Shown here one piece after another: positions 1 to 21,842 of a stretch of DNA of 64,000 nucleotides. The notes under the pieces were generated by a model that saw only the letters and a list, made by a program, of their open reading frames with translations, made no database searches and was not told the DNA's origin. The DNA lies in NCBI RefSeq assembly GCF_030915525.1, contig NZ_CP133269.1:3879001-3943000 (forward strand), written 5' to 3'. Position 1 is the first letter of the stretch, and each line of letters begins with the position of its first letter. This DNA comes from Neobacillus sp. PS2-9 (lineage in GTDB: Bacteria; Bacillota; Bacilli; Bacillales; Cytobacillaceae). A program made the position numbers and the translations under genes.

Positions 1-316
1 TTATGGAATGGTTTGAAGGTGTGTAGATGCCACCTGTAATTTCTATTCTTTTCCTAGTGTATTGTATCGTAGATAATACACAAGTTATAAAACCGATAAC
101 ACACGCAAAGATTCCAAGAATGATGACTAAGGTATTAATGTAGGGATTGGAACTAATTTTAATTGTAAAATGTAATGAAGTTGTTAAAAAACCTACTCCT
201 GTTATCGATATAGCCGTACGAATCCATGCAAGATACGTTCTTTCATTTGCTAAATGTTGCTGTGCATACTTTACACTATCTCCTGATGACTCTTCTATTC
301 TATATAAAGCTTTCAT
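1..316 (-). CDS. YidH/DUF202 family small membrane protein (3' end outside window)
   Basis: An open frame of 105 codons runs off the left edge with no stop, so the C-terminus is missing. Near the N-terminus is a QQHLANERTYLAWIRTA segment, the hallmark of the DUF202/YidH family of small multi-spanning membrane proteins. Two hydrophobic segments follow, at about residues 33-57 and 64-85. The ATG lies 7 bp past the phaC stop, with an AAGGGG ribosome site inside the phaC end, so it is probably co-transcribed with phaC. Its biochemical role is unknown. The family call is fairly firm; a role in PHA metabolism is only suggested by position. Confidence 0.75.
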   Translation of the reverse strand, partial: MKALYRIEESSGDSVKYAQQHLANERTYLAWIRTAISITGVGFLTTSLHFTIKISSNPYINTLVIILGIFACVIGFITCVLSTIQYTRKRIEITGGIYTPSNHSI

Positions 317-322
317 TAATGA

Positions 323-1390
323 TTAAATCCCCTTCATTTCCTCTGATCGAGCCGAAAGCCACTTATCCCAAACTTCAGCGAATACCCCGGTCAATGCTAG
401 TGAAACATGTCCACCTTCAAAAACCTCATAAGTTTTATCCTTACTTGAAACAAGGTCCATCACCGGAAGACTTTGCTTATCTAATATAATTGTGTCACGT
501 GAGCAAGAGAAGACAAATAGCGGGCAGTTTATATTCTTTAAATCCACATTCCTGCCACCAATCACCAATTCTCCCTTTAAGAGTTTATTCTCTTGATAGA
601 GATCGTTAAACATCTGTTTGAATGCAGCACCTGCAAACGAAGCAGAGTCATTCGTCCACTTATCCATTCGGCGCCACTTTTCTACATATTTCTCATCATG
701 TGCACGGGTGACGAGATTGATCTTAGAACTTGCAAAACCAGGTGATACCATCCTATATATCAAATGCATAATTTCTGATGGAATGGTCCCATGTGCTTCA
801 GCAAAACGGTCAAGACTTAGCTGCCCTTTTTGTAGTGCTTCCAGCAATTTATCAGGAAAGATGCCGATACTAAAATCGATTGGTACGGCCGCAAGGGATA
901 AATTCTTAATTGGCAATTCCGTTATGGAAGCCAAGATGGCTGCAATGGTTCCACCCAGGCAATAGCCGGCAAGGGATATTTCCTTTGCACCTGAATGTCT
1001 TAAAGCTCGTTTAAGGGCGTTCTCCAAATAATCAATGATATAATTATCAAGAGTGATATCAGAATCTTCAAGCCCAGGGGAGCCCCAGTCCAATAGGTAG
1101 ACATCATAGCCGCGCTCGGTAAGTCCGCCTACAACGCTGCTTCCTTCCCCGATGTCAAGAATGTACGCCTTATTTAACAAGGAGTATACAAGAAATAACG
1201 GGATCGCATGTCTTTTTTCCTTTGCAGGATGATACCATACGGTTGCTTTATTTTTCTTCCAGACAGTCTGTCTCGGTGTAGGTACAATATCTGGCTTTGG
1301 CTCGGTCATAATTTTATATAGCTGGTTCCACCGTTTCGCTTCTTTTTCTAAGTTTAAGATAGGAAAAAGGTTTGTTCCTACTGCTTTCAT
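323..1390 (-). CDS. phaC: Poly(3-hydroxyalkanoate) synthase catalytic subunit PhaC (class III/IV)
   Basis: PhaC polymerises (R)-3-hydroxyacyl-CoA into PHA on the surface of cytoplasmic granules. The protein has 355 residues, the usual size for class III/IV synthases. The lipase-like box GYCLGG places the nucleophile at about Cys144. The downstream FSCSRDTI and EGGHVSLALTG stretches supply the expected Asp and His of the triad. The ATG at 1390 is preferred over an upstream TTG because GAGAGGAG lies at good spacing before it. It follows phaR directly (23 bp), as in Bacillus class IV phaRC synthases. Confidence is high; substrate chain length cannot be read from sequence. Confidence 0.92.
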   Translation of the reverse strand: MKAVGTNLFPILNLEKEAKRWNQLYKIMTEPKPDIVPTPRQTVWKKNKATVWYHPAKEKRHAIPLFLVYSLLNKAYILDIGEGSSVVGGLTERGYDVYLLDWGSPGLEDSDITLDNYIIDYLENALKRALRHSGAKEISLAGYCLGGTIAAILASITELPIKNLSLAAVPIDFSIGIFPDKLLEALQKGQLSLDRFAEAHGTIPSEIMHLIYRMVSPGFASSKINLVTRAHDEKYVEKWRRMDKWTNDSASFAGAAFKQMFNDLYQENKLLKGELVIGGRNVDLKNINCPLFVFSCSRDTIILDKQSLPVMDLVSSKDKTYEVFEGGHVSLALTGVFAEVWDKWLSARSEEMKGI

Positions 1391-1413
1391 TATTATCACT
1401 CCTCTCTTCAATG

Positions 1414-1959
1414 TTATTTAATACCGGTAAGCACTAGATCTTTATCCTGCTTTTTTTCCGATACTTTTTTATGCTTTTCCTGCTCTATTCCGATGAGGCC
1501 TCTCTCTATTTCTTTCCGCAATTCCTGAAGGTCGGCATTCATTTTTTGCGTTTCCGCCAGCCCTTGGGCTATCTTTTGGAATTCATTCTTCATTTGCATG
1601 ACAATATTGACTACTTCTTCGAACATTCCTGAATTTTCTTTAGTAATGGAGCTTACACTTTCTTGTAATTTCCAAATTTGTTCTTCTAACAAATCAATTT
1701 TTTCTTCTGTCTGAATAGATAGCTTTGCGGCATTAGCGACATCTTTCTTTGTCGGGATATTCATTAGTGCCGCAATTTGCTCTTGGTGCTTTCTAAGTCG
1801 CTCTAGGTAAAATGAATAGGTGTTTAGGCCTGAACTTGCTGTGCGAACAAATTCTTTGTTGTCTGTTAGGTTATATAATAGGCCCGTTACTTGTTTGTCC
1901 CACATTTCACTCAATTGGTTAAATCCAACAAATGGATCAAAGATTTTTTCATTTGACAT
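1414..1959 (-). CDS. phaR: PHA synthase accessory subunit PhaR/PhaE-like
   Basis: A 181-residue, alpha-helical, charged protein directly upstream of phaC. It matches the PhaE/PhaR-type synthase subunit pattern: an N-terminal FDPFxxF segment, a helical middle part, LMNIPTKKDVANAA at about 64-78, then a coiled coil with EEKIDLLEEQIWKL. Class III/IV PhaC enzymes need such a partner for activity. The start has AAGGAGAG 7-8 bp upstream. A PhaE assignment cannot be ruled out, but the short length and Bacillus context favour PhaR. Confidence 0.8.
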   Translation of the reverse strand: MSNEKIFDPFVGFNQLSEMWDKQVTGLLYNLTDNKEFVRTASSGLNTYSFYLERLRKHQEQIAALMNIPTKKDVANAAKLSIQTEEKIDLLEEQIWKLQESVSSITKENSGMFEEVVNIVMQMKNEFQKIAQGLAETQKMNADLQELRKEIERGLIGIEQEKHKKVSEKKQDKDLVLTGIK

Positions 1960-1977
1960 ATTGTTTCTCTCCTTAAA

Positions 1978-2688
1978 TTATGATTTTGAAGGTTCTTCCG
2001 TTTTTTCCATATATTTATTTAGCGGTAAGATAAGTTCTTTGAATTGTGCTGTAAACAGATTGACAAATCCTTTTTGAAATTCATATAGCGGATTTCCAGT
2101 TTGTTTAACAGTATTAATATATTGCATTCTCCCTTTTTTCCTAAGCTCAATATAATGCTCCATCATTTCTACATATTTCTCAATCGATTGGTAGTTTGCA
2201 ATAGTTCGGAACGGTGTACTTAAGAGTGACAATATTGTCTTTTGAATTTGATTCATTTGCGCATTCATTTCCTCATAAGACTGAACCGGAAAGAAATGCT
2301 GTAAGATGGTGGTTGACATTAAAAATTCATCTCGAACAGTCTTCTCCCATTCAGTAAATTCCTTTGTAAATTGCTCTGCTATTGCTATTTTATTTCCCTG
2401 ATTCCGTTGTACACTTTCAGAGAATCGTCTCACCTCTTCTAAAAAGACTTCGTCGCGATGTTCAGCACACTTTACCCATTCATCAAATTCCTGATATGCA
2501 AATCTCCAGAGCAGGTCTAGGCTAGAAACCGATGCTTCTTTTTCACCATCGACAGTGATTTCTTCGTCCTGTTTATCCTCTAGTAAAGGTTCATTTACAG
2601 TTTCAACCGTTTCGTTAACTTCTTGTTTTTTCTTTCGCGTTATTGTTTCTTTCAATGATTCTTTCAGATTATCTTTTTTTTCAGCCAT
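1978..2688 (-). CDS. Coiled-coil/phasin-like protein of the pha operon, function unknown
   Basis: I do not recognise this 236-residue protein firmly. Residues 1-60 are very charged (runs of Lys and Glu) and probably disordered. Residues about 65-235 are helical and amphipathic, with many Gln and Glu residues and no membrane segment or signal peptide. It ends 18 bp before phaR, so it is the first gene of a phaX-phaR-phaC unit. Size and character would suit a granule-associated phasin or a second PhaE-like subunit, but that is inference from position. The ATG at 2688 is chosen over the GTG at 2697 because AAAGGA sits too close to the GTG. Confidence 0.6.
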   Translation of the reverse strand: MAEKKDNLKESLKETITRKKKQEVNETVETVNEPLLEDKQDEEITVDGEKEASVSSLDLLWRFAYQEFDEWVKCAEHRDEVFLEEVRRFSESVQRNQGNKIAIAEQFTKEFTEWEKTVRDEFLMSTTILQHFFPVQSYEEMNAQMNQIQKTILSLLSTPFRTIANYQSIEKYVEMMEHYIELRKKGRMQYINTVKQTGNPLYEFQKGFVNLFTAQFKELILPLNKYMEKTEEPSKS

Positions 2689-2731
2689 ATTTCGCACATC
2701 CTTTTAAAATTTTTTTAAATCAAAGTTGCCA

Positions 2732-4003
2732 TTAGAGGTTCACTATTCTTTTATCATTCTCAGTTGAGATTCGTTGTTTTGGTTTTCCGAAAAGGTATAT
2801 GAGTATAGCTGCAATCACCATACCAACTGCCATCCCATAAATGGATGTACTAAAACCACCTCCTGGATTTGAACCAGAAGCTTGGATGAGTTTTCCAAAA
2901 ATAATTGGAGAAATTATACCTGATGAAGACATTACTCCATAATAAGTACCTGTCATAACACCTCTTCGCTGTGGGAGTAAACTAGTTACTGCTGTAGGAT
3001 TAAGTGTGTTTATTGTGACTACTAATGTATTTACTAAAGAAAGAATAATGATGATCGAACCCGAAGCATTTACTAGGGGATACATGGAGTACAAAATCCC
3101 TGCTAGAATAGCACAAATGGCAGTAAATAGAGTTCGCGACTTCCACAAACTTTGAGTTTTTTTGTATAAACGATCTGAAATGATGGCTAGTACCATTCCA
3201 AGAATCGCTCCCATTAATCCGGAAATGGCAATAACCATTGCAGACTGTTGTTCAGACAATCCCTTTACTTTCATTAGGTATGCAGGATTAAAGGTGAGTC
3301 CAAAGACAATCAAAGAATAAGCAACAAATGAAGATAGGGTTGTAAAAATAAAAATAGGAGATCGTAAAGCTTTCCAGATATCTTTCCCATTAAAATTTTG
3401 TTTGTTTTCCTGTTTAAATACTTCTTCTTCAAAAGAAACAGCTGGTTTCAGCCGTCCCAGCCAAAGCCAACATAGTAACCAGACAAAGCTTAAAATACCA
3501 AAAATAAAAAATGCTTGTTTCCAACCATAATTTGAGATTAGAAAAACCACAATTGGGGCTGTAACAGCGATCCCCACAACATTGCCAAAATTTATAATCG
3601 AGATGGCAAGTCCACGTGATTCCGGTTTAAACCATTTACTAAGATGACTGATTGCGGTTGCAGAAAAAGCACCTTCTCCTGCACCTAGTAATACTCTACT
3701 AAATATAAGCATTGGTAGACTTGATACAAACAACATCATAGATTGCGTAATTGTCCAAATAATCGCCATAATAGCCAGTAATTTCCCAGTTCCAAAACGA
3801 TCAGATAAAGAAGCCCCTATTATTCCAACTATTGAAAACAACCAAAAAAAACTGCTGCCAACAATGCCAAACTGAATGGAGGTTAGATTCAAATCCTCCA
3901 TAATATGAATTCCGGCTAAACCTGTAATGGATTTGTCAGCAAAATTAATAATAGACATAATAAAAAGTGCAAATAAAATAATCCATTTCGTCCAACTTTT
4001 CAT
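2732..4003 (-). CDS. MFS transporter (organic-anion type)
   Basis: A 423-residue integral membrane protein with about 12 hydrophobic helices and a charged central loop near residues 190-215. The N-terminal half carries the MFS signature (GASLSDRFGTGK at about 63-74) and LLGAGEGAFSATAISHLSKW, typical of the anion:cation symporter branch. The start has CAGGAG at good spacing. It lies between the alkyl sulfatase and the pha genes on the same strand. The sulfatase has no visible signal peptide, so this carrier is a reasonable candidate for alkyl-sulfate or other organic-anion uptake. The family is firm; the substrate is inference. Confidence 0.85.
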   Translation of the reverse strand: MKSWTKWIILFALFIMSIINFADKSITGLAGIHIMEDLNLTSIQFGIVGSSFFWLFSIVGIIGASLSDRFGTGKLLAIMAIIWTITQSMMLFVSSLPMLIFSRVLLGAGEGAFSATAISHLSKWFKPESRGLAISIINFGNVVGIAVTAPIVVFLISNYGWKQAFFIFGILSFVWLLCWLWLGRLKPAVSFEEEVFKQENKQNFNGKDIWKALRSPIFIFTTLSSFVAYSLIVFGLTFNPAYLMKVKGLSEQQSAMVIAISGLMGAILGMVLAIISDRLYKKTQSLWKSRTLFTAICAILAGILYSMYPLVNASGSIIIILSLVNTLVVTINTLNPTAVTSLLPQRRGVMTGTYYGVMSSSGIISPIIFGKLIQASGSNPGGGFSTSIYGMAVGMVIAAILIYLFGKPKQRISTENDKRIVNL

Positions 4004-4074
4004 TCAAACTCCTGCCTCTCACCAAATATATTCATTTTTTTCGATAAAAATTAGAAATCATACCTAAGGAGTAA

Positions 4075-4125
4075 AACACCTGCTTTGCCCGCATTAATAG
4101 CGAGTAAGATTGAACAGGTGCTTAT
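4075..4125 (-). terminator. Possible terminator/hairpin between alkyl sulfatase and MFS gene
   Basis: CACCTG and CAGGTG arms flank a loop of about 30 bases; read on the minus strand, TTTTAC follows. The stem is short and the loop long, so this is weak. It lies in the gap of about 160 bp between the two genes. Confidence 0.3.
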
Positions 4126-4165
4126 TGTGAAAAAAATTGAATCATAAATGATTTTTCTCAGTTAA

Positions 4166-6070
4166 TTAAGGAGTTACGATATTTGGAAGACGGTCGAACT
4201 CATCCAATAGTGATAAAAATTCATTCAATTTTGTTTGGTCACCAGAAATGAATACTTTACCTGCTGCTACTGCTTGTTCTGGTGAAAGCAGACCAAGCCC
4301 AATTCCATAGAATGTGAATTGATCAATAGTTAAGGAAACATCTGGATCAGCATTTAACTTACCAGATTTATATATTAAGACAGAATTTTCTAAATAAATA
4401 GCGTATTCTTGGTTGGAATTTGATAACGTTACATTCAACGCTATTTTTTTACCATCTGCTTTTGGGCCGTTTAGTTTAACAGCGATCAGCTTTAAAAATT
4501 CTTCTACTGGCATATTTTTAATGATTCCAGAAACATCTAATGGGGAATTATCTTTATTAATTCCATTCCTTAGTTCTGATGCACCAACAAGATAAATATT
4601 ACGCCAATTGGCTGATTCGGCTTGGTATCCTAATTGTTCGAATGCATCTGCTAATAAATTTTTTGCTTCCGAATTTTCCGGGTCGGCCATTACGACATTT
4701 TTTAATACTTGAGCTACCCAGCGATACTCACCATTTTCAAAGTCAGCTTTTGCTTGTTTCAAAATGTTAGCCGCTCCACCCATGTATTCTACATATTTAA
4801 GACCCGCTTCCACTTGTGGTAATGGATCTAAATCTGAAGGATGAGCACTATAATAACCTAAGTAAAAATTGTATACGCCCTTTGAGTTATGCTTTAACGT
4901 GCCATAATACCCACGATTCCCCCAATAAGTATCTAATGCTTTTGGAAGCTTGATTGTCTCAGCAATTTCATCCATCGTATATCCCTGATTGGCTAAACGC
5001 ACTGTCTGATCGTGCATATATTTATATAAATCACGTTGCAATTTCAAGTGGTTTAATGCCTGATTTTTGCCCCAAACAGGCCATGCATGAATCATGAGCA
5101 AGGCATCAATCTCTTCATTTTCAAATAAATCGATTGTTTTATTGAGTGAATTAGCCCAATGAAGAGCATCCCGCGTTTTTGCCCCTCTTACCGTATAAAT
5201 TTGATGCATCAATTTATTGGCGTTCTCTGATACGAATAATGCTTTGTACTCTTCGATATAAAAATGCATTTCAGCTGGTGCTTCTGTGTTTGGAGTTAAT
5301 AAAAATTGAAAGGTTACCCCATCGATTTCCATCGTTTGGATTTCGTTTACTATTTCAACAGTAGGTTTCTCAAAACTCATCGTCCCTGAACTCATCGTAT
5401 TACCTATACCTATAGATACGGAGCCCTTCGTACCGTCTGGTAAATTTTTACCAAACTGATACTCTGCTCTTCTCGCCATGATTGTGCCTAAAAGCACATT
5501 TTCACTTAACGCTTCTTCTGTAAAATATTGGGGAGCTATAATTGGAATATCTGGATTCTCTGCATATTTTAGAACTGCTTGAATACCGCCAAAATGGTCC
5601 GCATGACTTTGACTAATAATGATGGCTGAAACTGGCTTTCTTGGTCGATGATTATAATATAATTCCATTGCAGCTTCAGCGGATTCATTACTTCCTAATG
5701 CATCACAGACAATGACTCCTTGTTTACCTTCGAAAAAGAAAGTGGTGGCGATTGATTGTCCACGAATTTGATAAACCCCTTCTACAACTTCAAACAAACC
5801 AGAGATAGCCTGTAATTGTGCATTTCTCCATAAACTTGGGTTCACTGTCTCAGGAGCAGTGTCGTTTAGAAATTCTAACTTATCGATGTCCCAGATGATT
5901 TCCCCAGAATTATCCTTAATCATGGTGGATTCTAAAGGTGCAATAAAGCCTCGGTTTGCATCTACGAAATCCTGTAAATCATCAAAATTTAGAGATTCGT
6001 ACACTGCTAAATTTGCCTTTTTTGTAAAAGAAGTTGCGGACATAGGTTGAGTTGAAACTTTACTTTTCAT
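4166..6070 (-). CDS. Alkyl/aryl sulfatase, metallo-beta-lactamase fold (SdsA/BDS1 type)
   Basis: A 634-residue protein with the family layout: an N-terminal metallo-beta-lactamase domain (about 90-340), an alkyl-sulfatase dimerisation domain, and a C-terminal SCP2-like sterol-carrier domain (about 520-634). The family hydrolyses primary alkyl sulfates such as dodecyl sulfate to alcohol plus sulfate using two zinc ions. The metal motif reads SQSHADHFGG, so the first His of HxHxDH is Gln154; His156, Asp158 and His159 are present. SENANKLMHQIYTVRGA and IHAWPVWG are family hallmarks. There is no signal peptide, unlike secreted SdsA1. The ATG at 6070 is chosen because the upstream ATG (6082) overlaps the ribosome site GGAGG. 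Confidence 0.9.
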   Translation of the reverse strand: MKSKVSTQPMSATSFTKKANLAVYESLNFDDLQDFVDANRGFIAPLESTMIKDNSGEIIWDIDKLEFLNDTAPETVNPSLWRNAQLQAISGLFEVVEGVYQIRGQSIATTFFFEGKQGVIVCDALGSNESAEAAMELYYNHRPRKPVSAIIISQSHADHFGGIQAVLKYAENPDIPIIAPQYFTEEALSENVLLGTIMARRAEYQFGKNLPDGTKGSVSIGIGNTMSSGTMSFEKPTVEIVNEIQTMEIDGVTFQFLLTPNTEAPAEMHFYIEEYKALFVSENANKLMHQIYTVRGAKTRDALHWANSLNKTIDLFENEEIDALLMIHAWPVWGKNQALNHLKLQRDLYKYMHDQTVRLANQGYTMDEIAETIKLPKALDTYWGNRGYYGTLKHNSKGVYNFYLGYYSAHPSDLDPLPQVEAGLKYVEYMGGAANILKQAKADFENGEYRWVAQVLKNVVMADPENSEAKNLLADAFEQLGYQAESANWRNIYLVGASELRNGINKDNSPLDVSGIIKNMPVEEFLKLIAVKLNGPKADGKKIALNVTLSNSNQEYAIYLENSVLIYKSGKLNADPDVSLTIDQFTFYGIGLGLLSPEQAVAAGKVFISGDQTKLNEFLSLLDEFDRLPNIVTP

Positions 6071-6103
6071 ACAAACCTCCAAGGATTATTATTTTTAAAT
6101 TTT

Positions 6104-6286
6104 GGCTGTGTTAAATAACATTGTTGCTTTTTATACCCTGTTGATTGGAGCGGAAGGAGCGAAGACTCCTGTGGGAGTACGGGTCTGGGGAGACCCCGCA
6201 GGCGCAAGCGCCGAGGAGGCTCGCCGAAACGCCCACGGAAAGCGAAGCTCCTGGAGCGGAAATCAACAGACAAGTTTAACAAAGCA
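6104..6286. mobile_element. 183-bp MITE-like palindromic repeat, copy 1
   Basis: The ends are GGCTGTGTTAAA and, inverted, TGCTTTGTTAAA (10 of 12 match). The 8-bp sequence TAAATTTT flanks both sides (6096-6103 and 6287-6294) as a target duplication. The inside is GC-rich and folds back on itself (TGTTGATT near 6139, AATCAACA near 6261). It has no gene; the open frames across it are artefacts. A second 183-bp copy lies at 35799-35981 in the opposite orientation. It sits directly upstream of the alkyl sulfatase start and may separate it from the dehydrogenase operon. Confidence 0.8.
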
Positions 6287-6301
6287 TAAATTTTAAAAAA
6301 A

Positions 6302-6377
6302 GGAAAACACTTTTGACTACCTGGCTATAATGTCAGTTCACCAACCAAACATTAAGAGGAGTTTTCAAGTGTTTTCC
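6302..6377. repeat. Inverted repeat GGAAAACACTT ... AAGTGTTTTCC
   Basis: Perfect 11-bp inverted arms lie about 54 bp apart, and similarity continues a few bases inward. The loop is too long for a normal terminator. It could be the collapsed remains of an insertion sequence or a shared terminator region after the alcohol dehydrogenase gene. No coding frame lies inside. Confidence 0.4.
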
Positions 6378-6438
6378 ATATAACTAGATTGCCAGATTAT
6401 GAAATGTAAAATTAGCGTTTTACATCTTGTAAACGAGA

Positions 6439-7647
6439 TTAAGCCTTTATCGCAGGTACCTCGAAAACTTCATTTATTACTTTGGTGATAATCGTGGCTG
6501 GTATCTTATAGAAAACTCCGGCAGGGTCATTATGAACAGCTGGTACCAAATGTTGAAGCGTCTCTTCGTTACATTCAAATTCACCAAAAGTGTCTGGCAA
6601 ATTCACTGCTTTGCGGAGATCTCTTATATATTGGACAACTTCCGCTAAACATTTCTCTGGTTGCTCTGATGGATTTGCGATTCCCAACGCTTGGGCAAAC
6701 CCCGTAATTCTTGGCAAATAGTACGTCGGCAGGGACTCCATTACATTCGGCAACAATACAGCGTTTGCAAGCCCGTGCGGGATATGAAATTTTGCCCCTA
6801 ACGCATGTGCCATGTTATGGACTGGAACCGCATTCATCGCAAGGCAAAAAGCAGAAATAGCCATCGAACTTGCCATCAGCATATTCGCTCTTGCTGAAAG
6901 ATCGTCCCCTTTTCGAACAGCAGTTTCTAAATTGTCTACAATCATTCGAATCGATTGAATTGCATAGGCGTCTGTCATCGGATTGGCCTTTTGTGAAAAA
7001 TAAGCCTCCACTGCATGAGTTAATGCGTCAAATCCTGTAAAGGCAGTGATTTTAGGAGGAAGCCCTACAGTTAAATCCGGATCCAGAATCGCCATATCTG
7101 CATTGATAAATGGATGAAGAAGATTTGTTTTTATTCCAATCTTTTCATTAAGGATAACGGCTACTGGTGATACTTCAGCACCCGTACCCGCCGTTGTCGC
7201 AATAGCTACATGCGGAATAAAAATATATTGGGCTTCTGGCCACCACTCCATCACATTTCCGGTAAGAAGGGAATCACGTATATCATTCAAACCTTTATGG
7301 AGCATCCACTTGATCCCTTTTACCGTATCCAAAACGCTGCCGCCACCAAGAGCAATTAAGGAATCACCGTTGCATTCTTTAAAGAAACGAGCTCCTCGAT
7401 TAATAATTTCACCTTTTGCATCCTGTTCGATATCTTCAAACACCCCAACCAGCTCAGGCGTACCCGGCATGATTTCAAATAATTCTTTAATTTGAGCTGT
7501 AATTCCGGCCTGGGTTAAACCCTTATCCGTGAAAAGTACTGCTCGTTTACCCCCAAGCCCTTTTATCATCTCAGGAAGCAAAGTTCTTGATCCCGCCCCG
7601 CTATTTACAACCGTTCGAACAGAAAATTGAAAAAATGATGTCGACAT
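6439..7647 (-). CDS. Iron-containing (group III) alcohol dehydrogenase
   Basis: A 402-residue NAD(P)-dependent alcohol dehydrogenase of the iron family. Visible are the GGGSVLDTVKG nucleotide-binding motif (about 100), TTAGTGAEVSP, GFDALTHAVEAY (about 206-217) and HNMAHALGAKFHIPHG (about 275-290) with the iron-binding His residues. The start has AGGTGA at good spacing. It is last in an operon with an acyl-CoA synthetase and an aldehyde dehydrogenase (gaps 45-75 bp). Oxidation of a fatty alcohol released by the neighbouring sulfatase is therefore a plausible job. The family is firm; the substrate is inferred. Confidence 0.9.
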   Translation of the reverse strand: MSTSFFQFSVRTVVNSGAGSRTLLPEMIKGLGGKRAVLFTDKGLTQAGITAQIKELFEIMPGTPELVGVFEDIEQDAKGEIINRGARFFKECNGDSLIALGGGSVLDTVKGIKWMLHKGLNDIRDSLLTGNVMEWWPEAQYIFIPHVAIATTAGTGAEVSPVAVILNEKIGIKTNLLHPFINADMAILDPDLTVGLPPKITAFTGFDALTHAVEAYFSQKANPMTDAYAIQSIRMIVDNLETAVRKGDDLSARANMLMASSMAISAFCLAMNAVPVHNMAHALGAKFHIPHGLANAVLLPNVMESLPTYYLPRITGFAQALGIANPSEQPEKCLAEVVQYIRDLRKAVNLPDTFGEFECNEETLQHLVPAVHNDPAGVFYKIPATIITKVINEVFEVPAIKA

Positions 7648-7692
7648 AGAATCACCTGCTTTTTTATTTTTGTATTAATAAATGAATCTGTA

Positions 7693-9213
7693 TTATCCCA
7701 ATAATATTTGGTACCAATGTTTTTGGCTTACTTCAGGTACAAGTGAACAGTGAACATGCTTTAGCTGCGAATATTCGTCCAGTGCATGGCGGCCTAGCTC
7801 TCGCCCGAAACCGCTTTGCTTGTATCCCCCAAATGGAGCATCACTGCGGAGCATATGCCAATCATTGATCCAGATCGTTCCAGCCTTTAATTCACGGGCT
7901 ATTTTCATTCCTTTATTTACATCTTTTGTCCAAACTCCACCTGCTAATCCATAAATCGTATCATTCGCTATTTCGATTGCTTCCTCAATTGTGGAGTAAC
8001 GGATGACTGAGAGCACAGGACCGAAGATTTCTTCTCTAGCAATCTTCATGTCATTATGAACATCGGCAAAAATGGTAGGCTCAATATAATAGCCATTTTC
8101 AAATCCTTCAACAATTGCACGCTTTCCTCCGCAAATCAATCGTGCCCCTTCTTGAATTCCGGATTCAATATAAGAAAGTACGGTATCCAATTGTTGCTGA
8201 GATACCATCGGTCCCATTCCTGTTGCGATATCTAATGGATTTCCAATTTTAATCGTGCTGGCAAGTTCAGCTAATTGTTCAATTACTTGTTCATAAATGG
8301 AATCATGTACTAATACACGCGTACCGGATTCACAAACTTGTCCAGAGTGTGTCAAGAATCCGAATAAAATGCCAGGAATGGTAATGCTCATGTCAGCATC
8401 AGGCAATACGATTGCCGGTGATTTCCCGCCTAACTCAAGCGTGACACGTTTCACCGTTTTAGATGCCTGCTCCATAATGCGGCTCCCTACTTCTGTAGAA
8501 CCGGTAAATGCTACTTTGTCTACACTTGGATGCGTGACAAGTGCTTCTCCAATGCTGGCACCAGGGCCAGGTACAACATTGAATACACCTGCCGGGATTC
8601 CAGCTTGAGCAGCCAATTCAGCTAATTTCAAGGTAGATAACGGAGTATTGGATGCTGGTTTAACTACGATCGAGTTCCCCATAGCTAACGCAGGAGCAAT
8701 TTTCCACATTGCTAAAATCATTGGAAAGTTCCAAGCAGTTATAGCTGCTACCACCCCAAGCGGCTCTCGCCAAACTTGATTATTACTTGGTCCAGGAAAT
8801 GGGACAGTAGGAAGAGACTCAACATACGGATACTCGACAGTAAACTTTGCAGTTTGCTGTAAGAGATCCACAATGGATAGGATGTCTAAGTTTGAAATCC
8901 GTCGAACGGTAGCTCCCGAACTAATAGACTCTAAGTAACCCAATTCTTCAGCATGTTCAATGATCTTATTTCCAAATTGGACAAGTACGTGAGCACGTTC
9001 TTGTGGAGATTTTTTAGACCATACTCCTGACTCAAAAGCCTGGCGGGCAGATGAAACAGCTGCCTCTACATCTTCTTTCCCAGCTTTCGCCACCTTAGCC
9101 GCGACTTCACCAGTTGCAGGGTTTATTACATTAAACGTTTCTCCGCTTATAGCTGGCTTCCACTCTCCATTTAAAAAGAGTGGAAATTCCAATGCTTGCA
9201 CTGTTGATACCAT
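7693..9213 (-). CDS. NAD(P)-dependent aldehyde dehydrogenase
   Basis: A 506-residue ALDH-superfamily enzyme oxidising an aldehyde to the acid. The catalytic Cys is in GQVCESGTR (Cys294), the general-base Glu is in VTLELGGKSP (Glu260), and the cofactor-site FTGSTEVG is at about 236-243. It has normal family length and an AAGGAGG ribosome site. It is the middle gene of the ligase-ALDH-ADH operon, so it would turn a fatty aldehyde from the alcohol dehydrogenase into a fatty acid for the ligase. Chain-length preference cannot be told from sequence. Confidence 0.93.
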   Translation of the reverse strand: MVSTVQALEFPLFLNGEWKPAISGETFNVINPATGEVAAKVAKAGKEDVEAAVSSARQAFESGVWSKKSPQERAHVLVQFGNKIIEHAEELGYLESISSGATVRRISNLDILSIVDLLQQTAKFTVEYPYVESLPTVPFPGPSNNQVWREPLGVVAAITAWNFPMILAMWKIAPALAMGNSIVVKPASNTPLSTLKLAELAAQAGIPAGVFNVVPGPGASIGEALVTHPSVDKVAFTGSTEVGSRIMEQASKTVKRVTLELGGKSPAIVLPDADMSITIPGILFGFLTHSGQVCESGTRVLVHDSIYEQVIEQLAELASTIKIGNPLDIATGMGPMVSQQQLDTVLSYIESGIQEGARLICGGKRAIVEGFENGYYIEPTIFADVHNDMKIAREEIFGPVLSVIRYSTIEEAIEIANDTIYGLAGGVWTKDVNKGMKIARELKAGTIWINDWHMLRSDAPFGGYKQSGFGRELGRHALDEYSQLKHVHCSLVPEVSQKHWYQILLG

Positions 9214-9286
9214 AAAAATTCCTCCTTGTTATTTACTCATTAAAAATCCACCAATTGTTTTTTAGACAAGTTCTTTATCAAACTTA

Positions 9287-10801
9287 TTAAACTTCCACTG
9301 GTTCAACACGCAAAGCTCTTCTCAAAATTTTACCTGTACTGTTCTTAGGTAATTCCTTCATAAATTCCACTAGCTTTGGAAGCTTGTACTTTGCAAGCTT
9401 GTCCTGGCAGAAATGCAAGATGTCATCCATCGTTAAACATTCATCGTTAGATACAACGAAAGCCTTTACAATCTCTCCATATTCTGTATCGATAATCCCT
9501 ATTACAGCTGCTTCCACAATAGCCGGGTGTTGATATAATACTTCTTCCACTTCTCTCGGATAGACGTTGTACCCGCCAACAAGGATCATATCTTTTTTAC
9601 GGTCCACGATATATATGTATCCTTCTTCATCCATTCGGGCCAAATCACCTGTATAAAACCATCCATCTTTCAAGGCTGAAAATGTAGCTTCCGGCATTCC
9701 TAAATACCCCATCATCACATTCGGACCTTTTACAATCAATTCTCCGACTTCTCCTCTTGGAACTTCCATTCCATCCGGATCCACCACTTTGTTCTTTACA
9801 TCTGGTATATCTATACCAACAGAACCAGGTTTACGTGTTCCCCGCAATGGGTTGAAAGCTGTAACAGGGGCAGTTTCAGAAAGCCCATAGCCTTCTATAA
9901 TTTGTACGTTATACTTTTCTTCAAATCGATGAAGCAGTTCAACCGGAATCGAAGCACCACCTGAAAAACAAGCGCGAATAGAAGAGAAATCTGCTGCTGT
10001 TGTCTCGGGCAACTGAAGCATGAAGCTAAACATGGTTGGAACCCCAGCAAACAAGGTCGCTTTCTCTCTTCTAATCGTTTTTATTACCTCAGCAGGACTA
10101 AATTTCGGAACAATGACAATTGTTGCCCCACAGGCAATGGGCAAGTTGATACAAACCGACATAGAAAACACATGGAACATTGGAAGAACAGTAATCATAC
10201 GGTCTCCTTCTGTGAACTCTGTAAGCTTAGATAATGATTCAACATTGGACGCCATATTTCGATGGGATAGCATGGCGCCTTTCGGCTTTCCAGTTGTTCC
10301 GGAAGTATAGAGAATGACTGCCAGATCATCCTCATGGATAGAAGGGCTTACAAAAATATCATTTGTTTCTTGAAAGAGAACCTCCCATGACAATTCAGAC
10401 TTGATCGATTCTGTATAGATGACCATCTTCAAATGTTCTAATTGCTCTTTCAATGGAGAAATTGTTGACTCTAAAGGAGAATCAGTAATCACAGCTTTCG
10501 CATGGCTATTTGATAAAATATAAGAAATTTCTGCTGAAGTGTAGGTTGGATTAATTGGAACAACTACTGCACCTGCACGAAGAATCCCATAGTAAGCAGT
10601 TACAAACTCAGGGCAATTTCCAAGGAGTAAAGCAACTTTGTCCCCTTTTCTGAGTCCTATTGAAGATAACCCCGCTGCAACACAATCTACCTCATTATCA
10701 AGATCTGCATACGTTATACTTTGGTACAAAAACGTATAGGCTATATTACTTGGATATCTTTCTGCACTGTTCTTTAAATTCTCATTCAAATTCAAAACCA
10801 T
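9287..10801 (-). CDS. Long-chain fatty-acid--CoA ligase / AMP-binding acyl-CoA synthetase
   Basis: A 504-residue member of the adenylate-forming family. The P-loop-like YTSGTTGKPKGAMLSH motif is at about 165-180, GYGLSET at about 297-303, the hinge YTGDLARMDEEGYIYIVDRKKD at about 378-400, and the C-terminal catalytic Lys lies in PKNSTGKILRR. It makes acyl-CoA from a carboxylic acid, ATP and CoA. It is the first gene of the operon that continues with ALDH and ADH. It is divergent from the LysR regulator across 142 bp, which makes that regulator the likely controller. The acid used is inferred to be fatty from the neighbourhood. Confidence 0.9.
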   Translation of the reverse strand: MVLNLNENLKNSAERYPSNIAYTFLYQSITYADLDNEVDCVAAGLSSIGLRKGDKVALLLGNCPEFVTAYYGILRAGAVVVPINPTYTSAEISYILSNSHAKAVITDSPLESTISPLKEQLEHLKMVIYTESIKSELSWEVLFQETNDIFVSPSIHEDDLAVILYTSGTTGKPKGAMLSHRNMASNVESLSKLTEFTEGDRMITVLPMFHVFSMSVCINLPIACGATIVIVPKFSPAEVIKTIRREKATLFAGVPTMFSFMLQLPETTAADFSSIRACFSGGASIPVELLHRFEEKYNVQIIEGYGLSETAPVTAFNPLRGTRKPGSVGIDIPDVKNKVVDPDGMEVPRGEVGELIVKGPNVMMGYLGMPEATFSALKDGWFYTGDLARMDEEGYIYIVDRKKDMILVGGYNVYPREVEEVLYQHPAIVEAAVIGIIDTEYGEIVKAFVVSNDECLTMDDILHFCQDKLAKYKLPKLVEFMKELPKNSTGKILRRALRVEPVEV

Positions 10802-10844: not shown

Positions 10845-10880
10845 GAATTACTTGAATTTATTATATATATAATTTACACT
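10845..10880. promoter_or_regulatory. Divergent promoter region between ligase operon and LysR gene
   Basis: The shared intergenic region contains a perfect 14-bp palindrome, ATTATATATATAAT (10860-10873). It offers TATAAT-like -10 elements in both directions, with TTGAAT upstream for the LysR side. A near copy of this whole region occurs at 15605-15717. Sites for the LysR protein would be expected here, but I cannot assign the box with confidence. Confidence 0.5.
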
Positions 10881-10943
10881 GAAATAAATCAACTGTTAAT
10901 GAAGTATATAGAAGCTAGACTTCTATATTTGAAGGAGAAAACT

Positions 10944-11855
10944 ATGCATATTGAACAATTGGAATACATTGTAAAGGTTGCCGAAACAGGAACAATTTCT
11001 ATAGCAGCAGAAAACCTGCATGTTTCTCAATCGGGAATCAGTCAATCTATTACTAGATTAGAAGATGAACTAGGTGTTAAAATATTTAAACGCCATCGAC
11101 GACTTGGCGCTGTTCCAACTGATGAAGGAAAAGCCTTAATTAAAAAGGCATATGAAGTATTAACAAAACTTCAAGAATTTAAAGATGAAGCCCAAGCCTA
11201 TAACACTGTATTTTCTGGAAATTTAAAATTATCAGCTATACCTGGCTTTATGCTGTTCCTATTAAAACCTTTATCTTCTTTTAAAAACGCCTATCCAAAT
11301 GTGAATATAGAAATTTCAGAAAAAGCTGTCCAGCATATTATAGAAAATGTCCAAAATAAACAGATTGATATTGGCCTAATCACGGTTTACGAAGATTTAT
11401 TAAAAAAAAGAGAGGATCTACTATTTGAGGTGGTACTTGAAGGTAAGATGCAGGTGTACGTCGGCCAAACCTCACCATTAGCTAAATATAAATCTATAAC
11501 TCCCCAACAACTAATCACACAAAACGTTGTTCTCTATAATGGTGATTATGTGAAACGATTTGCCAATAACCTTATTAGTAAATTTGGACCCATGAACATT
11601 GTATTTACCTCTGATAATACAGAAGTAATAAAAAAAGCAATCATTGAAGGATTAGGAATAAGCTTCGGGCCCGACTTTTCCATAAAAAATGATCCTTCTG
11701 TTTTAAAAGGCGAGATTGTCTCTCTCGACATAATAGATTACGAACAGGTAAATGTAGGTTTAGCATGGATACGCTCAGATAATAATCATTTTTCAATAAA
11801 CGCAAAGAAATTTTTAGAACATTTTAAATTCCACTCTCGAATGCTGACACATTAA
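10944..11855 (+). CDS. LysR-family transcriptional regulator
   Basis: A 303-residue LysR regulator. The N-terminal winged helix-turn-helix (about 1-60, MHIEQLEYIVKVAETGTISI then AAENLHVSQSGISQSI) is followed by a periplasmic-binding-like effector domain (about 90-295). The ATG at 10944 follows GAAGGAG and matches the family start; an in-frame ATG 45 bp upstream has no ribosome site. It diverges from the acyl-CoA ligase-ALDH-ADH operon. In Pseudomonas a LysR regulator (SdsB) controls the SdsA alkyl sulfatase, so a similar role is plausible. The effector is unknown. Confidence 0.9.
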   Translation: MHIEQLEYIVKVAETGTISIAAENLHVSQSGISQSITRLEDELGVKIFKRHRRLGAVPTDEGKALIKKAYEVLTKLQEFKDEAQAYNTVFSGNLKLSAIPGFMLFLLKPLSSFKNAYPNVNIEISEKAVQHIIENVQNKQIDIGLITVYEDLLKKREDLLFEVVLEGKMQVYVGQTSPLAKYKSITPQQLITQNVVLYNGDYVKRFANNLISKFGPMNIVFTSDNTEVIKKAIIEGLGISFGPDFSIKNDPSVLKGEIVSLDIIDYEQVNVGLAWIRSDNNHFSINAKKFLEHFKFHSRMLTH

Positions 11856-11979: not shown

Positions 11980-12024
11980 ACATACTAGGTTCGTAAAGCC
12001 TCCTGCTTTACGAACCTAGTATGT
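11980..12024. terminator. Perfect 20-bp hairpin, probable bidirectional terminator
   Basis: Two perfectly complementary 20-base arms (11980-11999 and 12005-12024) flank the 5-base loop CTCCT. It lies between the end of the LysR gene and the end of the acyl-CoA dehydrogenase pseudogene, whose old stop codon falls inside the right arm. Neither side has a strong T-run, so ordinary intrinsic termination is not certain. A stem this long and perfect is unusual. Confidence 0.55.
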
Positions 12025-12312: not shown

Positions 12313-13452
12313 TTAGTCAAGTCGTTCAATAATTAATGCATTGGCCATTCCAAGACCTTCGCACATTGTTTGCAACCCATATCGCCCACCTATTCTTTCT
12401 AACTCATTAAGCATTGTCACGAACAGTCTAGCTCCACTAGCCCCTAAAGGATGACCTAATGCGATTGCACCACCGTTAGGATTTAATTTCTTCGGATCTG
12501 CCCCTGTTTCCTTCAACCATGAAATTGGAACAGATGCGAAGGCCTCATTTACCTCAAAAATATCAATATCTTCTAACGATAGACCTGCTTTATTTAGTAC
12601 TTTTTCTGTAGCAGGTATCGGTCCCGTCAGCATCAATGTTGGATCGGAACCTACCACTGTTCGAGCGATGATCCGACAGCGTGGTTTAAGACCTAATTCA
12701 TTAGCCTTCTCACGTGACATAATTAAGACAGCAGCTGCCCCGTCGCTAATAGGACTAGATATTCCTGGATGTATAAATCCATTTTTTTTAAAGGATGGAC
12801 TTAGCTTACGAAGGTCCCCGAGGGTAGAATTTGATCGTGGGCATTCGTCCTGATTGAAGACTTGGCCATCTTCACCGAAAATCGGTATAATCTCCCTTTC
12901 AAAGCGACCCTCTCTAATTGCTTGAATAGCCTTTTGATGGCTGCCCACCGCAAATTGATTCATGTCATCTTGACTTATATTCCATTTTTCTGCAATTAAC
13001 TCTGCGGACAAACCTTGGTTGATTATTTCATAGTTTGAGGTCAAGCCCTTACTCAATTCCGCTCCTTGTATGGATGAAAACATCGGTACACGGCTCATAT
13101 TCTCCACTCCGGCTGCAACAACCACGTCCATATCTCCAGAAATGATCGCTTGAGCGGCAAAATGAACGGCTTGTTGGCTGGATCCACATTGGCGGTCGAT
13201 CGTTGTTCCTGGCACTGTGATAGGATATCCGGCAATCAGTGCTGCAACCCTCCCGATATCCCCTGACTGTTCACTAACTTGTGACACACATCCCATAATG
13301 ACATCTTCAATACTCTCTGCTGAAATCTGCGTCCTCCGAACAAGTTCCTGTAAAACTTGCGCTACTAAATCATCGGAACGAATATTTTTAAAAATTCCTT
13401 TCCGCTTACCTATTGGTGTCCGTACAGCTTCAACGACTACAGCTTCTCTCAT
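12313..13452 (-). CDS. Thiolase (acetyl-CoA C-acyltransferase)
   Basis: A 379-residue thiolase. The acyl-accepting Cys is in TIDRQCGSSQQAVH (Cys89). GGAIALGHPLGASGARL carries the catalytic His and CEGLGMANA the second Cys. The family either cleaves 3-ketoacyl-CoA in beta-oxidation or condenses acetyl-CoA; the context with ligase, crotonase and dehydrogenase remnants favours fatty or related acyl-CoA degradation. The start has GGAGAG at good spacing. It follows a broken acyl-CoA ligase. Confidence 0.9.
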   Translation of the reverse strand: MREAVVVEAVRTPIGKRKGIFKNIRSDDLVAQVLQELVRRTQISAESIEDVIMGCVSQVSEQSGDIGRVAALIAGYPITVPGTTIDRQCGSSQQAVHFAAQAIISGDMDVVVAAGVENMSRVPMFSSIQGAELSKGLTSNYEIINQGLSAELIAEKWNISQDDMNQFAVGSHQKAIQAIREGRFEREIIPIFGEDGQVFNQDECPRSNSTLGDLRKLSPSFKKNGFIHPGISSPISDGAAAVLIMSREKANELGLKPRCRIIARTVVGSDPTLMLTGPIPATEKVLNKAGLSLEDIDIFEVNEAFASVPISWLKETGADPKKLNPNGGAIALGHPLGASGARLFVTMLNELERIGGRYGLQTMCEGLGMANALIIERLD

Positions 13453-13478
13453 ATATTCAACTCTCCATTTCGATTAAA

Positions 13479-13747
13479 TTAATATTCTGTAGTCATCACG
13501 TGCAAAACCTGGGGCATTTCTAATTTGATTTCATCAGTCATCGGTTTTAATTCTGGAATCAAAATGACTGTATCTACTCTAGCATTTTTAAAAATATAGC
13601 TAATCTTTGTTGATTCTTCAACATGCATAAATAAACGGGATAAACTCAGGGAATTTTCCAACAGCAACACTACATGATTTCCTTTTTCAACACCTTTTTG
13701 TTTCAAACCATTGGCGATTCTTCATACTGATTGAATTCGTGGTATCC
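13479..13747 (-). pseudogene. Acyl-CoA synthetase (AMP-binding) N-terminal remnant
   Basis: The readable part begins near 13720 with IANGLKQKGVEKGNHVVLLL, the usual N-terminal lobe of AMP-binding ligases. It continues to a stop at 13479 through ISYIFKNARVDTVILIPEL. Just upstream YHEFNQ and YEE lie in a different frame with a stop between, so at least one frameshift is needed. A segment also seems missing after LLLENS, and the catalytic core is absent. It sits between the SDR and thiolase genes and is presumably a relic of a ligase once in this operon. Confidence 0.7.
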
Positions 13748-14551
13748 CTACATATAAATACCACCATTTACTTGTAAGACGGCTCCATTCACATAGTTTG
13801 ACATTGGGGAAGTGAGATAATAGATTGCATCCGCAGCTTCTTCGATTGTTCCTGGACGCTTCTGAGGAATGGCTCTTGTCAATTGTTCACGCACGTTCTT
13901 AGGGATGCCAAGTGGAATGCCGCTGATGGATTCCCCTTGTTCTTTTGGTTGGGTTAATCGTGTATCCATAACTCCAAAAGCTATTGCGTTGCAGTTGATG
14001 TTGAACTGCCCCCATTCTTTTGCTACTGACTTAGTTAAGCCAAAAAGACCAGCCTTAGCTGATGCATAATTCGTTTGTCCGACATTTCCTGTCAATCCAG
14101 CAATCGAAGACACATTAATAATTTTTCTGTAATGGTTAATCCCTTGTTCGATCTCTTTTTTTGCCGCATCCCTCATATAGGGTGCTGCTTCTCTTATAAG
14201 ACGGAAAGGTGCCACTAAATGAACTTCCATTATTTTCCGAAATTGTTCATCCGTCATCTTGTGAACAAGTCCGTCCCATGTATATCCTGCATTATTGACC
14301 AAAACATCCAATCGCCCAAAGGAGTATACAGCCTCTGCTACAAGCATGGAAGGGAACTCGTTTTCTGTTACATCCCCTGAAAAGGCAATGGCTTCCCCAC
14401 CTAATTCAACAATTTTAGATCTTACTGTTTCTACCCGTTCTTGATCTATGTCAGTTAGAACTACTTTTACTCCTTGTCTTGCTAATTTTTCTGCAGTTGC
14501 TTCACCAATTCCTCGTCCTGCCCCAGTAATAATAGCTACATTTCCTTCCAT
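13748..14551 (-). CDS. Short-chain dehydrogenase/reductase (FabG-like)
   Basis: A 267-residue classical SDR. The NAD(P) motif TGAGRGIGEATAEKL is at about 10-24 and NNAGY at about 86-90. The catalytic Ser-Tyr-Lys set is in NVSSIAGLTGNVGQTNYASAKAG in shortened form (S about 151, Y about 164, K about 168). It is likely a 3-hydroxyacyl-CoA/3-oxoacyl reductase or dehydrogenase. Beside PHA synthase genes a PhaB-like role (making (R)-3-hydroxyacyl-CoA) is possible, but so is a beta-oxidation role. The ribosome site is AAAGGAGG. It lies between the crotonase gene and the ligase remnant. Confidence 0.88.
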   Translation of the reverse strand: MEGNVAIITGAGRGIGEATAEKLARQGVKVVLTDIDQERVETVRSKIVELGGEAIAFSGDVTENEFPSMLVAEAVYSFGRLDVLVNNAGYTWDGLVHKMTDEQFRKIMEVHLVAPFRLIREAAPYMRDAAKKEIEQGINHYRKIINVSSIAGLTGNVGQTNYASAKAGLFGLTKSVAKEWGQFNINCNAIAFGVMDTRLTQPKEQGESISGIPLGIPKNVREQLTRAIPQKRPGTIEEAADAIYYLTSPMSNYVNGAVLQVNGGIYM

Positions 14552-14629
14552 TTCTCTCGTCCTCCTTTAATTTAATAGAAAATCAACTTCTATTAGTCTC
14601 ACTATTTATGAAATTCATTCTACTTCTCA

Positions 14630-15403: not shown

Positions 15404-15604
15404 TAAAAATTACCTCACAAGTTAAAATTTACGTATTTGTACTGCAAATTTCCGTACGGCCCCTCTTTCGACGGTATTTCGTACAGCGTTTGATCTCTTT
15501 ACTATATATTCTCGAAACATCTTTTTCAGCTCAACTATCTATCTTACTTTTGAATTACCCACCCCGACGAAAATCTCACTAATTCCAGTTCTACCTTTTA
15601 TTTT

Positions 15605-15832
15605 CAGAAAATTAGAAATTACGTGAATTTATTATATATATAATTTACACTTAAATAAATTTACTACTAGTGCAGTAAATATAATCTAGACTTCTATATT
15701 TTAAGGAGAAAACTATGTATATCGAAAAATTAATAAGTTTTTGGACGCCAGGTTTTAAATTAAGCCACATGTCTGTTTTTGTATTGTATACAATCTTAAA
15801 AGGATGCCTTTTATCAAAAGGCACCCTCTTTT
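15605..15832 (+). pseudogene. Duplicated LysR promoter region with dead LysR start
   Basis: Positions 15605-15740 closely resemble 10840-10965. They share the AT palindrome (15631-15644), CTAGACTTCTATATTTT, the AAGGAGAAAACTATG ribosome site and start, and the first residues (MYIEKL against MHIEQL). After about five codons the similarity to LysR stops. The rest of the 429-bp gap (15404-15604) shows no gene. The copy is best explained as the 5' remnant of a second LysR gene, or a rearrangement that copied the promoter. Confidence 0.7.
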
Positions 15833-21608: not shown

Positions 21609-21660
21609 ATAGAAAATGCCTTTTTTATTATTTAGAGACATCCCAATAGTTACCGACAAT

Positions 21661-21816: not shown

Positions 21817-21842
21817 AGAAAAAATTATGTTGAGGGATACAG

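Follow-up and report, generated by a model that had tools for sequence, protein, structure and literature searches.

A putative alkyl-sulfate catabolic operon with probably inserted polyhydroxyalkanoate synthase genes on the chromosome of Neobacillus sp. PS2-9

The DNA considered here, termed the window below, is a stretch of 64,000 nucleotides (3879001-3943000) of the genome of Neobacillus sp. PS2-9, which is 5.19 Mb long and consists of a single contig. Between 323 and 10801 of the window, eight genes run on the minus strand in the order acs, aldh, adh, sulf, mfs, phaX, phaR and phaC from upstream to downstream, and a lysR gene lies divergently on the plus strand. An initial annotation, made from the sequence letters, had read this island as a possible route from alkyl sulfates to polyhydroxyalkanoate (PHA). 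The genes that it named on one strand are all present and open there, at the positions listed below.

Gene content and conservation of the island

9287..10801, minus strand, acs: acyl-CoA ligase, PF00501 and PF13193; scores 550.6 with the long-chain acyl-CoA ligase model NF004837 (cut-off 476)
7693..9213, minus strand, aldh: aldehyde dehydrogenase (ALDH), PF00171 (Aldedh), 597 bits; none over cut-off among the best 25 of 43 NCBIfam models
6439..7647, minus strand, adh: iron-containing alcohol dehydrogenase (Fe-ADH), PF00465 and PF25137; none of 15 NCBIfam models over cut-off
4166..6070, minus strand, sulf: alkyl-sulfatase homologue of the glutamine (Gln) type, 634 amino acids (aa), motif SQSHADH; PF14863, PF14864 and PF00753; 610 bits to YjcS (4pdx)
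2732..4003, minus strand, mfs: carrier of the major facilitator superfamily (MFS), PF07690 (MFS_1), 194 bits; best model TIGR00893 (2A0114, D-galactonate transporter family), 183 bits, below its cut-off of 395
1978..2697, minus strand, phaX: no Pfam or NCBIfam match; occurs next to phaR and/or phaC in the loci fetched
1414..1959, minus strand, phaR: PhaR-like PHA synthase subunit, TIGR02132, 47.4 bits (cut-off 148.4)
323..1411, minus strand, phaC: PhaC-like PHA synthase, TIGR01836, 287.9 bits (cut-off 365.3); PF00561; Cys-Asp-His positions kept
10899..11855, plus strand, lysR: LysR-type regulator, PF00126 and PF03466

From acs to phaC the intergenic gaps are 73, 45, 368, 162, 34, 18 and 2 bp, the mfs-phaX gap being that of 34 bp. 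For the sulfatase, the listing of open reading frames (ORFs) gives a TTG start at 6082, but that TTG falls in TTGGAGGTTTGTATG, that is, in a ribosome-binding site followed by ATG; the start at 6070 fits the 634 aa found for most of the listed homologues. The true start of lysR is probably near 10944, as the NCBIfam models mostly align from residue 16. The MFS protein is presumed to import an organic anion. In the whole genome the alkyl-sulfatase dimerisation domain has a single match, and PhaC-like proteins have three near-full-length matches, none over the model cut-off, and two weak partial ones.

A search of 61 genomes of the genus gave a sulfatase match of at least 1e-100 quality in 17, and in nine of these, the window's genome included, the protein is 84-100% identical. 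All nine keep the order lysR, acs, aldh, adh, sulf, mfs, phaX, phaR, phaC with a divergent lysR, and the arrangement is therefore beyond chance; five of the nine islands are presumed to be the same as the loci named L002, L004, L006, L012 and L016. In seven of the other islands mfs and phaX are 6 to 85 bp apart; in the eighth (G057) the mfs frame is shortened. As for the other eight of the 17 genomes, G045 (68%) and G025 (69%, gene broken) are without phaX in the fetched stretch, and the sulfatase match is only 39-59% identical in G020, G058, G002, G027, G007 and G003. A second homologue of the sulfatase occurs in G025 (38%) and G051 (55%).

Outside the genus, a core of sulf, aldh, adh and mfs, with no pha genes in the fetched flanks, was found in 12 loci of other genera.

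Core-only loci: L003, L005, L007, L009, L014 and the Gottfriedia-type loci L008, L010, L011, L013, L019, L020, L022

It should be noted that L007 and L009 are without acs, that acs of L014 is a fragment at the locus edge, and that the stretch of L005 ends 733 bp past mfs; mfs shows 42% identity in L003, L007 and L009. The distant Gln-type loci L015, L017, L018 and L024 have no such neighbours, and the adh and aldh genes of L021 and L023 are different ones. The core thus recurs as a unit, but not throughout the clade of such sulfatases. The gene order that the initial annotation proposed to look for in relatives is present in nine of nine Neobacillus genomes with the close sulfatase, with 12 core loci beyond them; its absence from every relative, which the annotation had named as a refutation, is thus not what was seen.

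The ratio of non-synonymous to synonymous substitution rates (dN/dS) is 0.14-0.16 for the sulfatase, 0.07-0.10 for adh (eight comparisons), 0.06-0.12 for aldh and 0.16-0.24 for phaC. Overall, the catabolic genes and phaC range over 0.06-0.33, lysR over 0.15-0.21, and phaR and phaX over 0.22-0.54. Purifying selection, like gene content, order and conservation, can be read directly from these sequences.

The divergent position of lysR, which had been pointed out before and matches the arrangement of SdsB-type control, is accompanied by a conserved element in the alignment of the nine intergenic regions.

10851..10893, no strand assigned: conserved lysR-acs intergenic block; its inverted repeat, ATTTA-N8-TAAAT, spans 10872-10889 and has the T-N11-A form

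LysR operators follow a T-N11-A rule, and the block is presumed, from its conservation and form, to hold the LysR operator and promoter. A scan for consensus promoters was uninformative (46 sites against 47.9 in shuffles), as was one for terminators (14 against 11.1), with the exception of a 20-pair stem-loop at 11980-12024 after lysR.

Metal site of the sulfatase

The domain set of the sulfatase homologue is complete, with the metallo-beta-lactamase domain, the dimerisation domain and the SCP2-like C-terminal domain all over the Pfam cut-off, and the protein can be aligned over almost its full length with each of the six distinct solved sequences, including YjcS (610 bits), PSdsA, Pisa1 and SdsA1. 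The HxHxDH motif with both zinc histidines is altered: the window sulfatase reads SQSHADH, with Gln (Gln158 in the numbering of the ORF listing) at the position of His192 of SdsAP. The zinc ligands of the latter are reported as Asp196, His197, His367 and Glu322, and as His192, His194, Glu303 and Glu322 (PMC5426288). Since one zinc histidine is replaced, the name alkyl sulfatase denotes homology rather than demonstrated activity, and we file the protein with a Gln-type clade of the Pfam family, not with the canonical SdsA1 enzyme. The previous statement that each family of the island is clear by motif is too strong for this protein. The Gln had been overlooked in the initial annotation, as had the hairpin described below and the question of where (R)-3-hydroxyacyl-CoA comes from.

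The alignment around this position comprises 174 homologues, namely 120 database matches, the window protein and 53 locus ORFs, with near-duplicates included and rows without a full ORF excluded (L024, L025, L026, L032 and L043). Among them 150 have Gln and 24 have His; the 120 are the best of at least 7997 matches, and the spread of the Gln type beyond these lies outside the sample. Of the remaining six zinc ligands, five are invariant in the 150 Gln-type proteins and one, the Glu322 equivalent, is kept in 149, with Asp in the exception. In addition, Ser285 and Gln294 are fixed in the Gln type (150/150 each), whereas the His type has Ala in 22 of 24 and Asn in 23 of 24, respectively; these two residues adjoin the Glu322 equivalent and the conserved His293. 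The latter, which we take to be the general acid of Pisa1, is kept in 149 of the 150, and Arg299 in all of them. Protonation of the sulfate by a histidine is described in a review of alkylsulfatases (PMC3920027).

In a quick tree of 69 rows, built with the His192 column omitted and without bootstrap, the Gln type forms one clade (SH-aLRT 100), inside which the homologue P0119 has His again. Among the matches listed, the named members of the Gln type are nearly all Bacillota, and one is labelled Rhodococcus. Given a single clade and the conservation of the six other ligands, the change from His to Gln is, on this comparative evidence, old and kept under selection. A plasmid origin of the Gln type was considered and dropped: 160 plasmid records matched, all at less than 60% identity, and the close type was not found on plasmids.

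Could the sulfatase homologue have ceased to be a hydrolase, having turned with the loss of a zinc ligand into a binding or regulatory protein, in an operon that oxidises an alcohol taken up as such? The replacement in 150 of 174 homologues would suit this idea, and so would two family proteins beside phaR-phaX in another genome (G018, see below), which are without the Asp-His half of the motif (HWHYT and HNHYA). We regard it as very unlikely, because the other zinc ligands, His293 and Arg299 are kept, the sulfatase evolves at a dN/dS of 0.14-0.16, P0119 has reverted to His within the clade, and Gln is compatible with catalysis elsewhere. That is, the GOB-type (B3-Q) metallo-beta-lactamases, which as a lineage also have Gln at the first histidine of HxHxDH, retain activity (PMC10318434); they belong to a different subfamily and catalyse a different reaction, and the comparison concerns only how such a site may work.

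The claim that the sulfatase is without a signal peptide agrees with the lack of an N-terminal hydrophobic segment, as judged by crude hydropathy only, and a carrier gene adjoins. By the same crude cut, which is not a signal-peptide program, a strongly hydrophobic N-terminal segment occurs in none of the 150 Gln-type proteins, against 12 of 24 of the His type. This fits a cytoplasmic enzyme that needs a carrier.

What could the substrate be? Dodecyl sulfate, named in the initial annotation, was a guess. SdsAP is reported to need Tyr246 and Gly263 for sodium dodecyl sulfate (SDS) (PMC5426288). According to the alignment and the published primers, Gly263 corresponds to Gly227 of the window sulfatase, and it is kept in all 150 Gln-type proteins. 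Natural alkyl sulfates existed before detergents, and the core could serve another sulfate ester, such as the short branched, secondary or hydroxylated alkyl sulfates of plants or algae, with SDS-like surfactants being fortuitous substrates and the polymer genes storing the resulting acyl-CoA. The altered metal site with its two adjoining positions, the Phe that stands for Tyr246 in the window, and the lack of any NCBIfam model over cut-off among the best rows for ALDH and Fe-ADH lend some weight to this explanation. However, the glycine required for SDS is invariant and the ligase exceeds the cut-off of a long-chain model, and we hold another ester of this kind to be unlikely.

Some related sulfatase genes deserve mention. 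Two Gln-type genes are broken, one by a stop inside the zinc motif (L024, 8986-10878) and the other by an interrupted frame (L032, G025:C2:57519-58610). Bacillaceae also have His-type sulfatases with a hydrophobic N-terminus (P0120, L083, L085, and L022 at 15474-17474, close to a Gln-type gene), and the two genes of L022 are possibly a secreted and cytoplasmic pair.

The polymer genes and the hairpin

PhaC could be aligned to the solved synthases through GYC.GGT, D and GH, so the positions of the Cys-Asp-His triad are present in an alpha/beta hydrolase fold (PF00561). For PhaX, no Pfam or NCBIfam model matched at 1e-3 and no relative was found in the PDB at E 1. It is presumed to be a phasin or a third synthase subunit; a divergent PhaR was rejected, since the profile comparison, made with shallow alignments, gave a probability of 0.2%. 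PhaX is present in 51 of the 61 genus genomes. One homologue, P0124, is labelled 'CHASE3 domain sensor protein' in one source with no Pfam domain listed, which is probably a misannotation.

The window genome has two further pha loci, and loci resembling both occur in the fetched relatives. Locus A consists of PEP carboxylase-adhE-acs-phaX-phaR-phaC and locus B of acs-sdr-phaR2-phaX-phaR-phaC. The island PhaC proteins form one clade (100/99) nested among the locus-A copies in a 27-row tree with nine island copies, and the island PhaX proteins do likewise (100/98) in a 30-row tree; both trees hold only loci in which the ORF was found. These trees indicate that phaXRC joined an older operon once. 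The place of the insertion may be marked by a gene at the window edge.

1..316, cut by the window edge (G000:C1:3878921-3879316), minus strand: DUF202 membrane protein gene, PF02656, downstream of phaC

In six of seven Gottfriedia-type loci the gene right after mfs is a DUF202 gene (41-43% identical), and in six of the nine Neobacillus islands such a gene comes after phaC. Consequently, in what is the simplest history, phaXRC was probably inserted between mfs and DUF202 of the older operon.

The catabolic genes have a history of their own. Between the window genome and G054, loci A and B are 96-99% identical in nucleotides, island phaC 98% and phaR 97%, but acs to mfs only 82-86%; the comparison omits three rows (42-68%) that pair different hydrolase paralogues. 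In acs to mfs, conversely, the window shares 83-97% identity with G057 and 91-95% with G019, with sulf, adh and aldh at 92-97%, but adhE of locus A is only 79% (G057) and 74% (G019). This discordance between the island and loci A and B indicates horizontal exchange of the catabolic genes among Neobacillus species, with the unit intact.

The pha genes might also be passengers, that is, a triplet duplicated into the operon that serves general storage under its own control with no metabolic link to alkyl sulfates. In favour of this are the many other phaX loci of the genus, the U-run hairpin farther upstream in the unit, and copies of phaX and phaC that have different neighbours, for example Etf-like and biotin carboxylase-like genes (judged from start sequences). 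Against this, the pha genes are co-directional and closely spaced after mfs in eight of nine islands and jointly present in all nine. In addition, an acyl-CoA ligase gene lies in the same fetched stretch in 28 of 40 phaX loci and not in 12, the 40 being a chosen subset of the genus copies with the window's own copy excluded. Moreover, locus A has phaX and phaR without phaC in the fetched stretches of three of the nine island genomes (G019, G035 and G047), and its phaC is present in all three island-less genomes whose locus A was fetched (G006, G049 and G042). A passenger role thus appears rather improbable to us.

A second meeting of a sulfatase family, a carrier, a ligase and pha genes is seen in G018 (L105, 1067-13615), where phaR-phaX is flanked by an MFS gene on one side and an acyl-CoA ligase gene on the other, and two alkyl-sulfatase family genes lie nearby. 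It supports a functional link, though the two proteins are without half of the zinc motif, as noted above, and phaC was not found in the L105 stretch. Modules with phaX or phaC occur in other catabolic settings as well (L156-L166), for example with thiolase and with genes that resemble Etf and biotin carboxylase in their start sequences. Production of medium-chain-length PHA (mcl-PHA) from oil has been reported for a Neobacillus niacini isolate (PMC11314287); another, distinct strain of N. niacini carries the island (L016).

Two further elements lie between adh and sulf.

6297..6377, minus strand: terminator-like hairpin between adh and sulf, with an 11-bp stem, a loop of about 60 nt and a U run
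6142..6264, minus strand: 123-bp dispersed repeat, downstream of the hairpin and upstream of sulf

The hairpin, which reads GGAAAACACTT...AAGTGTTTTCC followed by U residues, is kept in nine of nine Neobacillus islands and in L003, L005, L007, L009 and L032. Its fold has a z of -3.3, with 1 of 200 shuffles as good, and it could split transcription into acs-aldh-adh and sulf-mfs-phaXRC. No Rfam family matched at the gathering score, and with RNAalifold 2 of 18 pairs changed on both sides, none of them in the long stem. A covariance model of the hairpin matched at 0.001 in 22 of 193 genomes, with 10 matches in G025 (one being the reverse reading of another), 7 in G071 and 10 in G087. Seventeen of 20 examined copies adjoin an ORF, or pieces, of the same transposase (judged from sequence starts; the one that was scanned is of the ISL3 family), and no transposase ORF was found beside those of L139, L154 and L155. 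A new riboswitch or attenuator was rejected in view of these multi-copy matches beside transposase ORFs. Because its relatives are multi-copy and mostly lie beside ISL3-type transposase ORFs or their pieces, the hairpin is taken to derive from an insertion sequence (IS); it is kept at the same site across genera, apparently exapted, and may act as a terminator. The 123-bp repeat has at least 40 copies in the genome (all 40 that were scored, out of 226 candidates, matched), and in the alignment of the nine gaps it is not found at this place in the other eight islands.

Proposed pathway and related systems

Taken together, we read the island as a chromosomal alkyl-sulfate catabolic operon, probably inducible, with an inserted PHA synthase triplet, and give this reading a probability of roughly 60%. 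A likely pathway, as far as gene families can tell, leads from alkyl sulfate through acyl-CoA to polymer. An amphiphilic sulfate ester would be imported by the MFS protein, and the cytoplasmic Gln-type sulfatase, whose metal site is altered and yet conserved, would by homology release the alcohol. Fe-ADH and ALDH would oxidise the alcohol to the acid, and the ligase, a family member over its cut-off, would form acyl-CoA. The acyl-CoA would enter beta-oxidation encoded elsewhere or by the neighbouring ech, sdr and thl genes, while a part would be diverted to (R)-3-hydroxyacyl-CoA, from which PhaRC would make the polymer, PhaX being a putative granule or accessory protein. The substrate or an intermediate would be sensed by LysR.

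The chain proposed in the initial annotation stands in part. Equivalent enzymes degrade SDS in Psychrobacter, but acyl-CoA would not pass straight into polymer, because (R)-3-hydroxyacyl-CoA is needed first, from genes not identified in the island. Two genes of MaoC-type hydratases lie elsewhere in the genome, and three neighbours of lysR may contribute to the conversion of acyl-CoA into 3-hydroxyacyl-CoA.

12313..15403, minus strand: thiolase, FabG-like short-chain dehydrogenase/reductase (SDR) and enoyl-CoA hydratase genes (ech-sdr-thl), adjoining lysR

Several points weigh against the operon reading. One canonical zinc histidine of the sulfatase is Gln, and Tyr246 of SdsAP is replaced by Phe in the window and in 137 of the 150 Gln-type proteins, as it is in 16 of 24 of the His type. 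PhaC and PhaR score below their curated cut-offs, with 287.9 against 365.3 bits and 47.4 against 148.4 bits, and no phaJ- or phaB-like gene was identified inside the island. The genes share a strand, but the adh-sulf gap of 368 bp contains the U-run hairpin; the mfs ORF of G057 has 322 aa against 423. The chain length of the substrate is not readable from sequence. Finally, the ech-sdr-thl genes could be rejected as a fixed part of the island: ech matches at 1e-60 in 8 of the 61 genus genomes and at 74% identity or more in 6, of which only G000 and G051 have the island, and in the fetched stretches ech and sdr were not found beside the other eight Neobacillus islands. In the Gottfriedia loci L008 and L010, the sulfatase unit is immediately followed by ech and sdr genes, which share 90-92% and 84-86% identity with those of the window.

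The closest known system is slfRCHSL of the Psychrobacter plasmid pP62BP1, a demonstrated operon that is inducible by lauryl aldehyde and gives E. coli the ability to decompose SDS (PMC3346939, PMC10779009). As described there, it shares with the island tandem genes of a sulfatase, an alcohol dehydrogenase, an aldehyde dehydrogenase and an acyl-CoA ligase, a divergent regulator, and the route from alkyl sulfate to acyl-CoA. In contrast, its alcohol dehydrogenase is of the GMC type, its regulator is an AraC-type repressor, it is plasmid-borne, and the five genes of the published operon include no carrier or PHA gene, whereas the island has Fe-ADH, LysR, a carrier, a Gln-type sulfatase and PHA genes. 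SlfS is reported to be 57% identical to SdsA1. The window sulfatase aligns over almost its whole length with the type III alkylsulfatases SdsA1, SdsAP, Pisa1 and YjcS, and has six of their seven zinc ligands as well as the neighbouring Arg and His. It differs from them in the fixed Ser285 and Gln294, in having no N-terminal hydrophobic segment, and in the Gln that replaces the first zinc His found in the five solved sequences with a printed alignment (that of SdsA1 itself being outside these). Similarly, the island resembles the class III and IV PHA synthases (PhaE-PhaC and Bacillus PhaR-PhaC) in the Cys-Asp-His positions and in a PhaR-like partner directly upstream of PhaC, and differs from them in the scores of PhaC and PhaR below the curated cut-offs and in the linkage to catabolic genes. 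Bacillus megaterium has other pha genes at the place where the island has PhaX.

The initial annotation knew of no description of the combination in spore formers. As the slf genes show, an operon from alkyl sulfate to acyl-CoA was already known, but no alkyl sulfatase operon with PHA synthase genes was found in the titles and abstract starts of open-licence PMC papers, among which papers with both kinds of term exist (for example PMC6107682, PMC8230428, PMC12857086, PMC3596284).

In a wider and more tentative picture, which we consider possible though somewhat doubtful, phaX-phaR-phaC would be a plug-in copied into different Neobacillus catabolic operons (adhE-ligase, ligase-SDR, alkyl sulfate, ligase-carrier and others), giving each feedstock its own storage branch. 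The alkyl-sulfate branch would then be served by a cytoplasmic sulfatase whose change from His to Gln yields a GOB-like di-metal geometry.

The surroundings of the island may be noted as well. Genes of an S8 peptidase, an XRE-TPR regulator and gerA-type germination proteins recur around it in differing orders (window 15833-23333, by Pfam; L007, L008, L010, L022 and L074-L076, by sequence starts), as if the island occupied a shared neighbourhood or hotspot. Farther away, the small RNA RsaE/RoxS lies at 49516-49631 on the minus strand of the window (99.2 bits).

If the operon reading is true, the breakdown of a common class of pollutants would be tied to bioplastic storage in one gene unit of a spore-former, and a variant metal site of the alkylsulfatase family, one that seems not to have been studied, would be fixed in a large, mostly Bacillota clade. 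It would also suggest that PHA synthases can be dedicated to single substrates.

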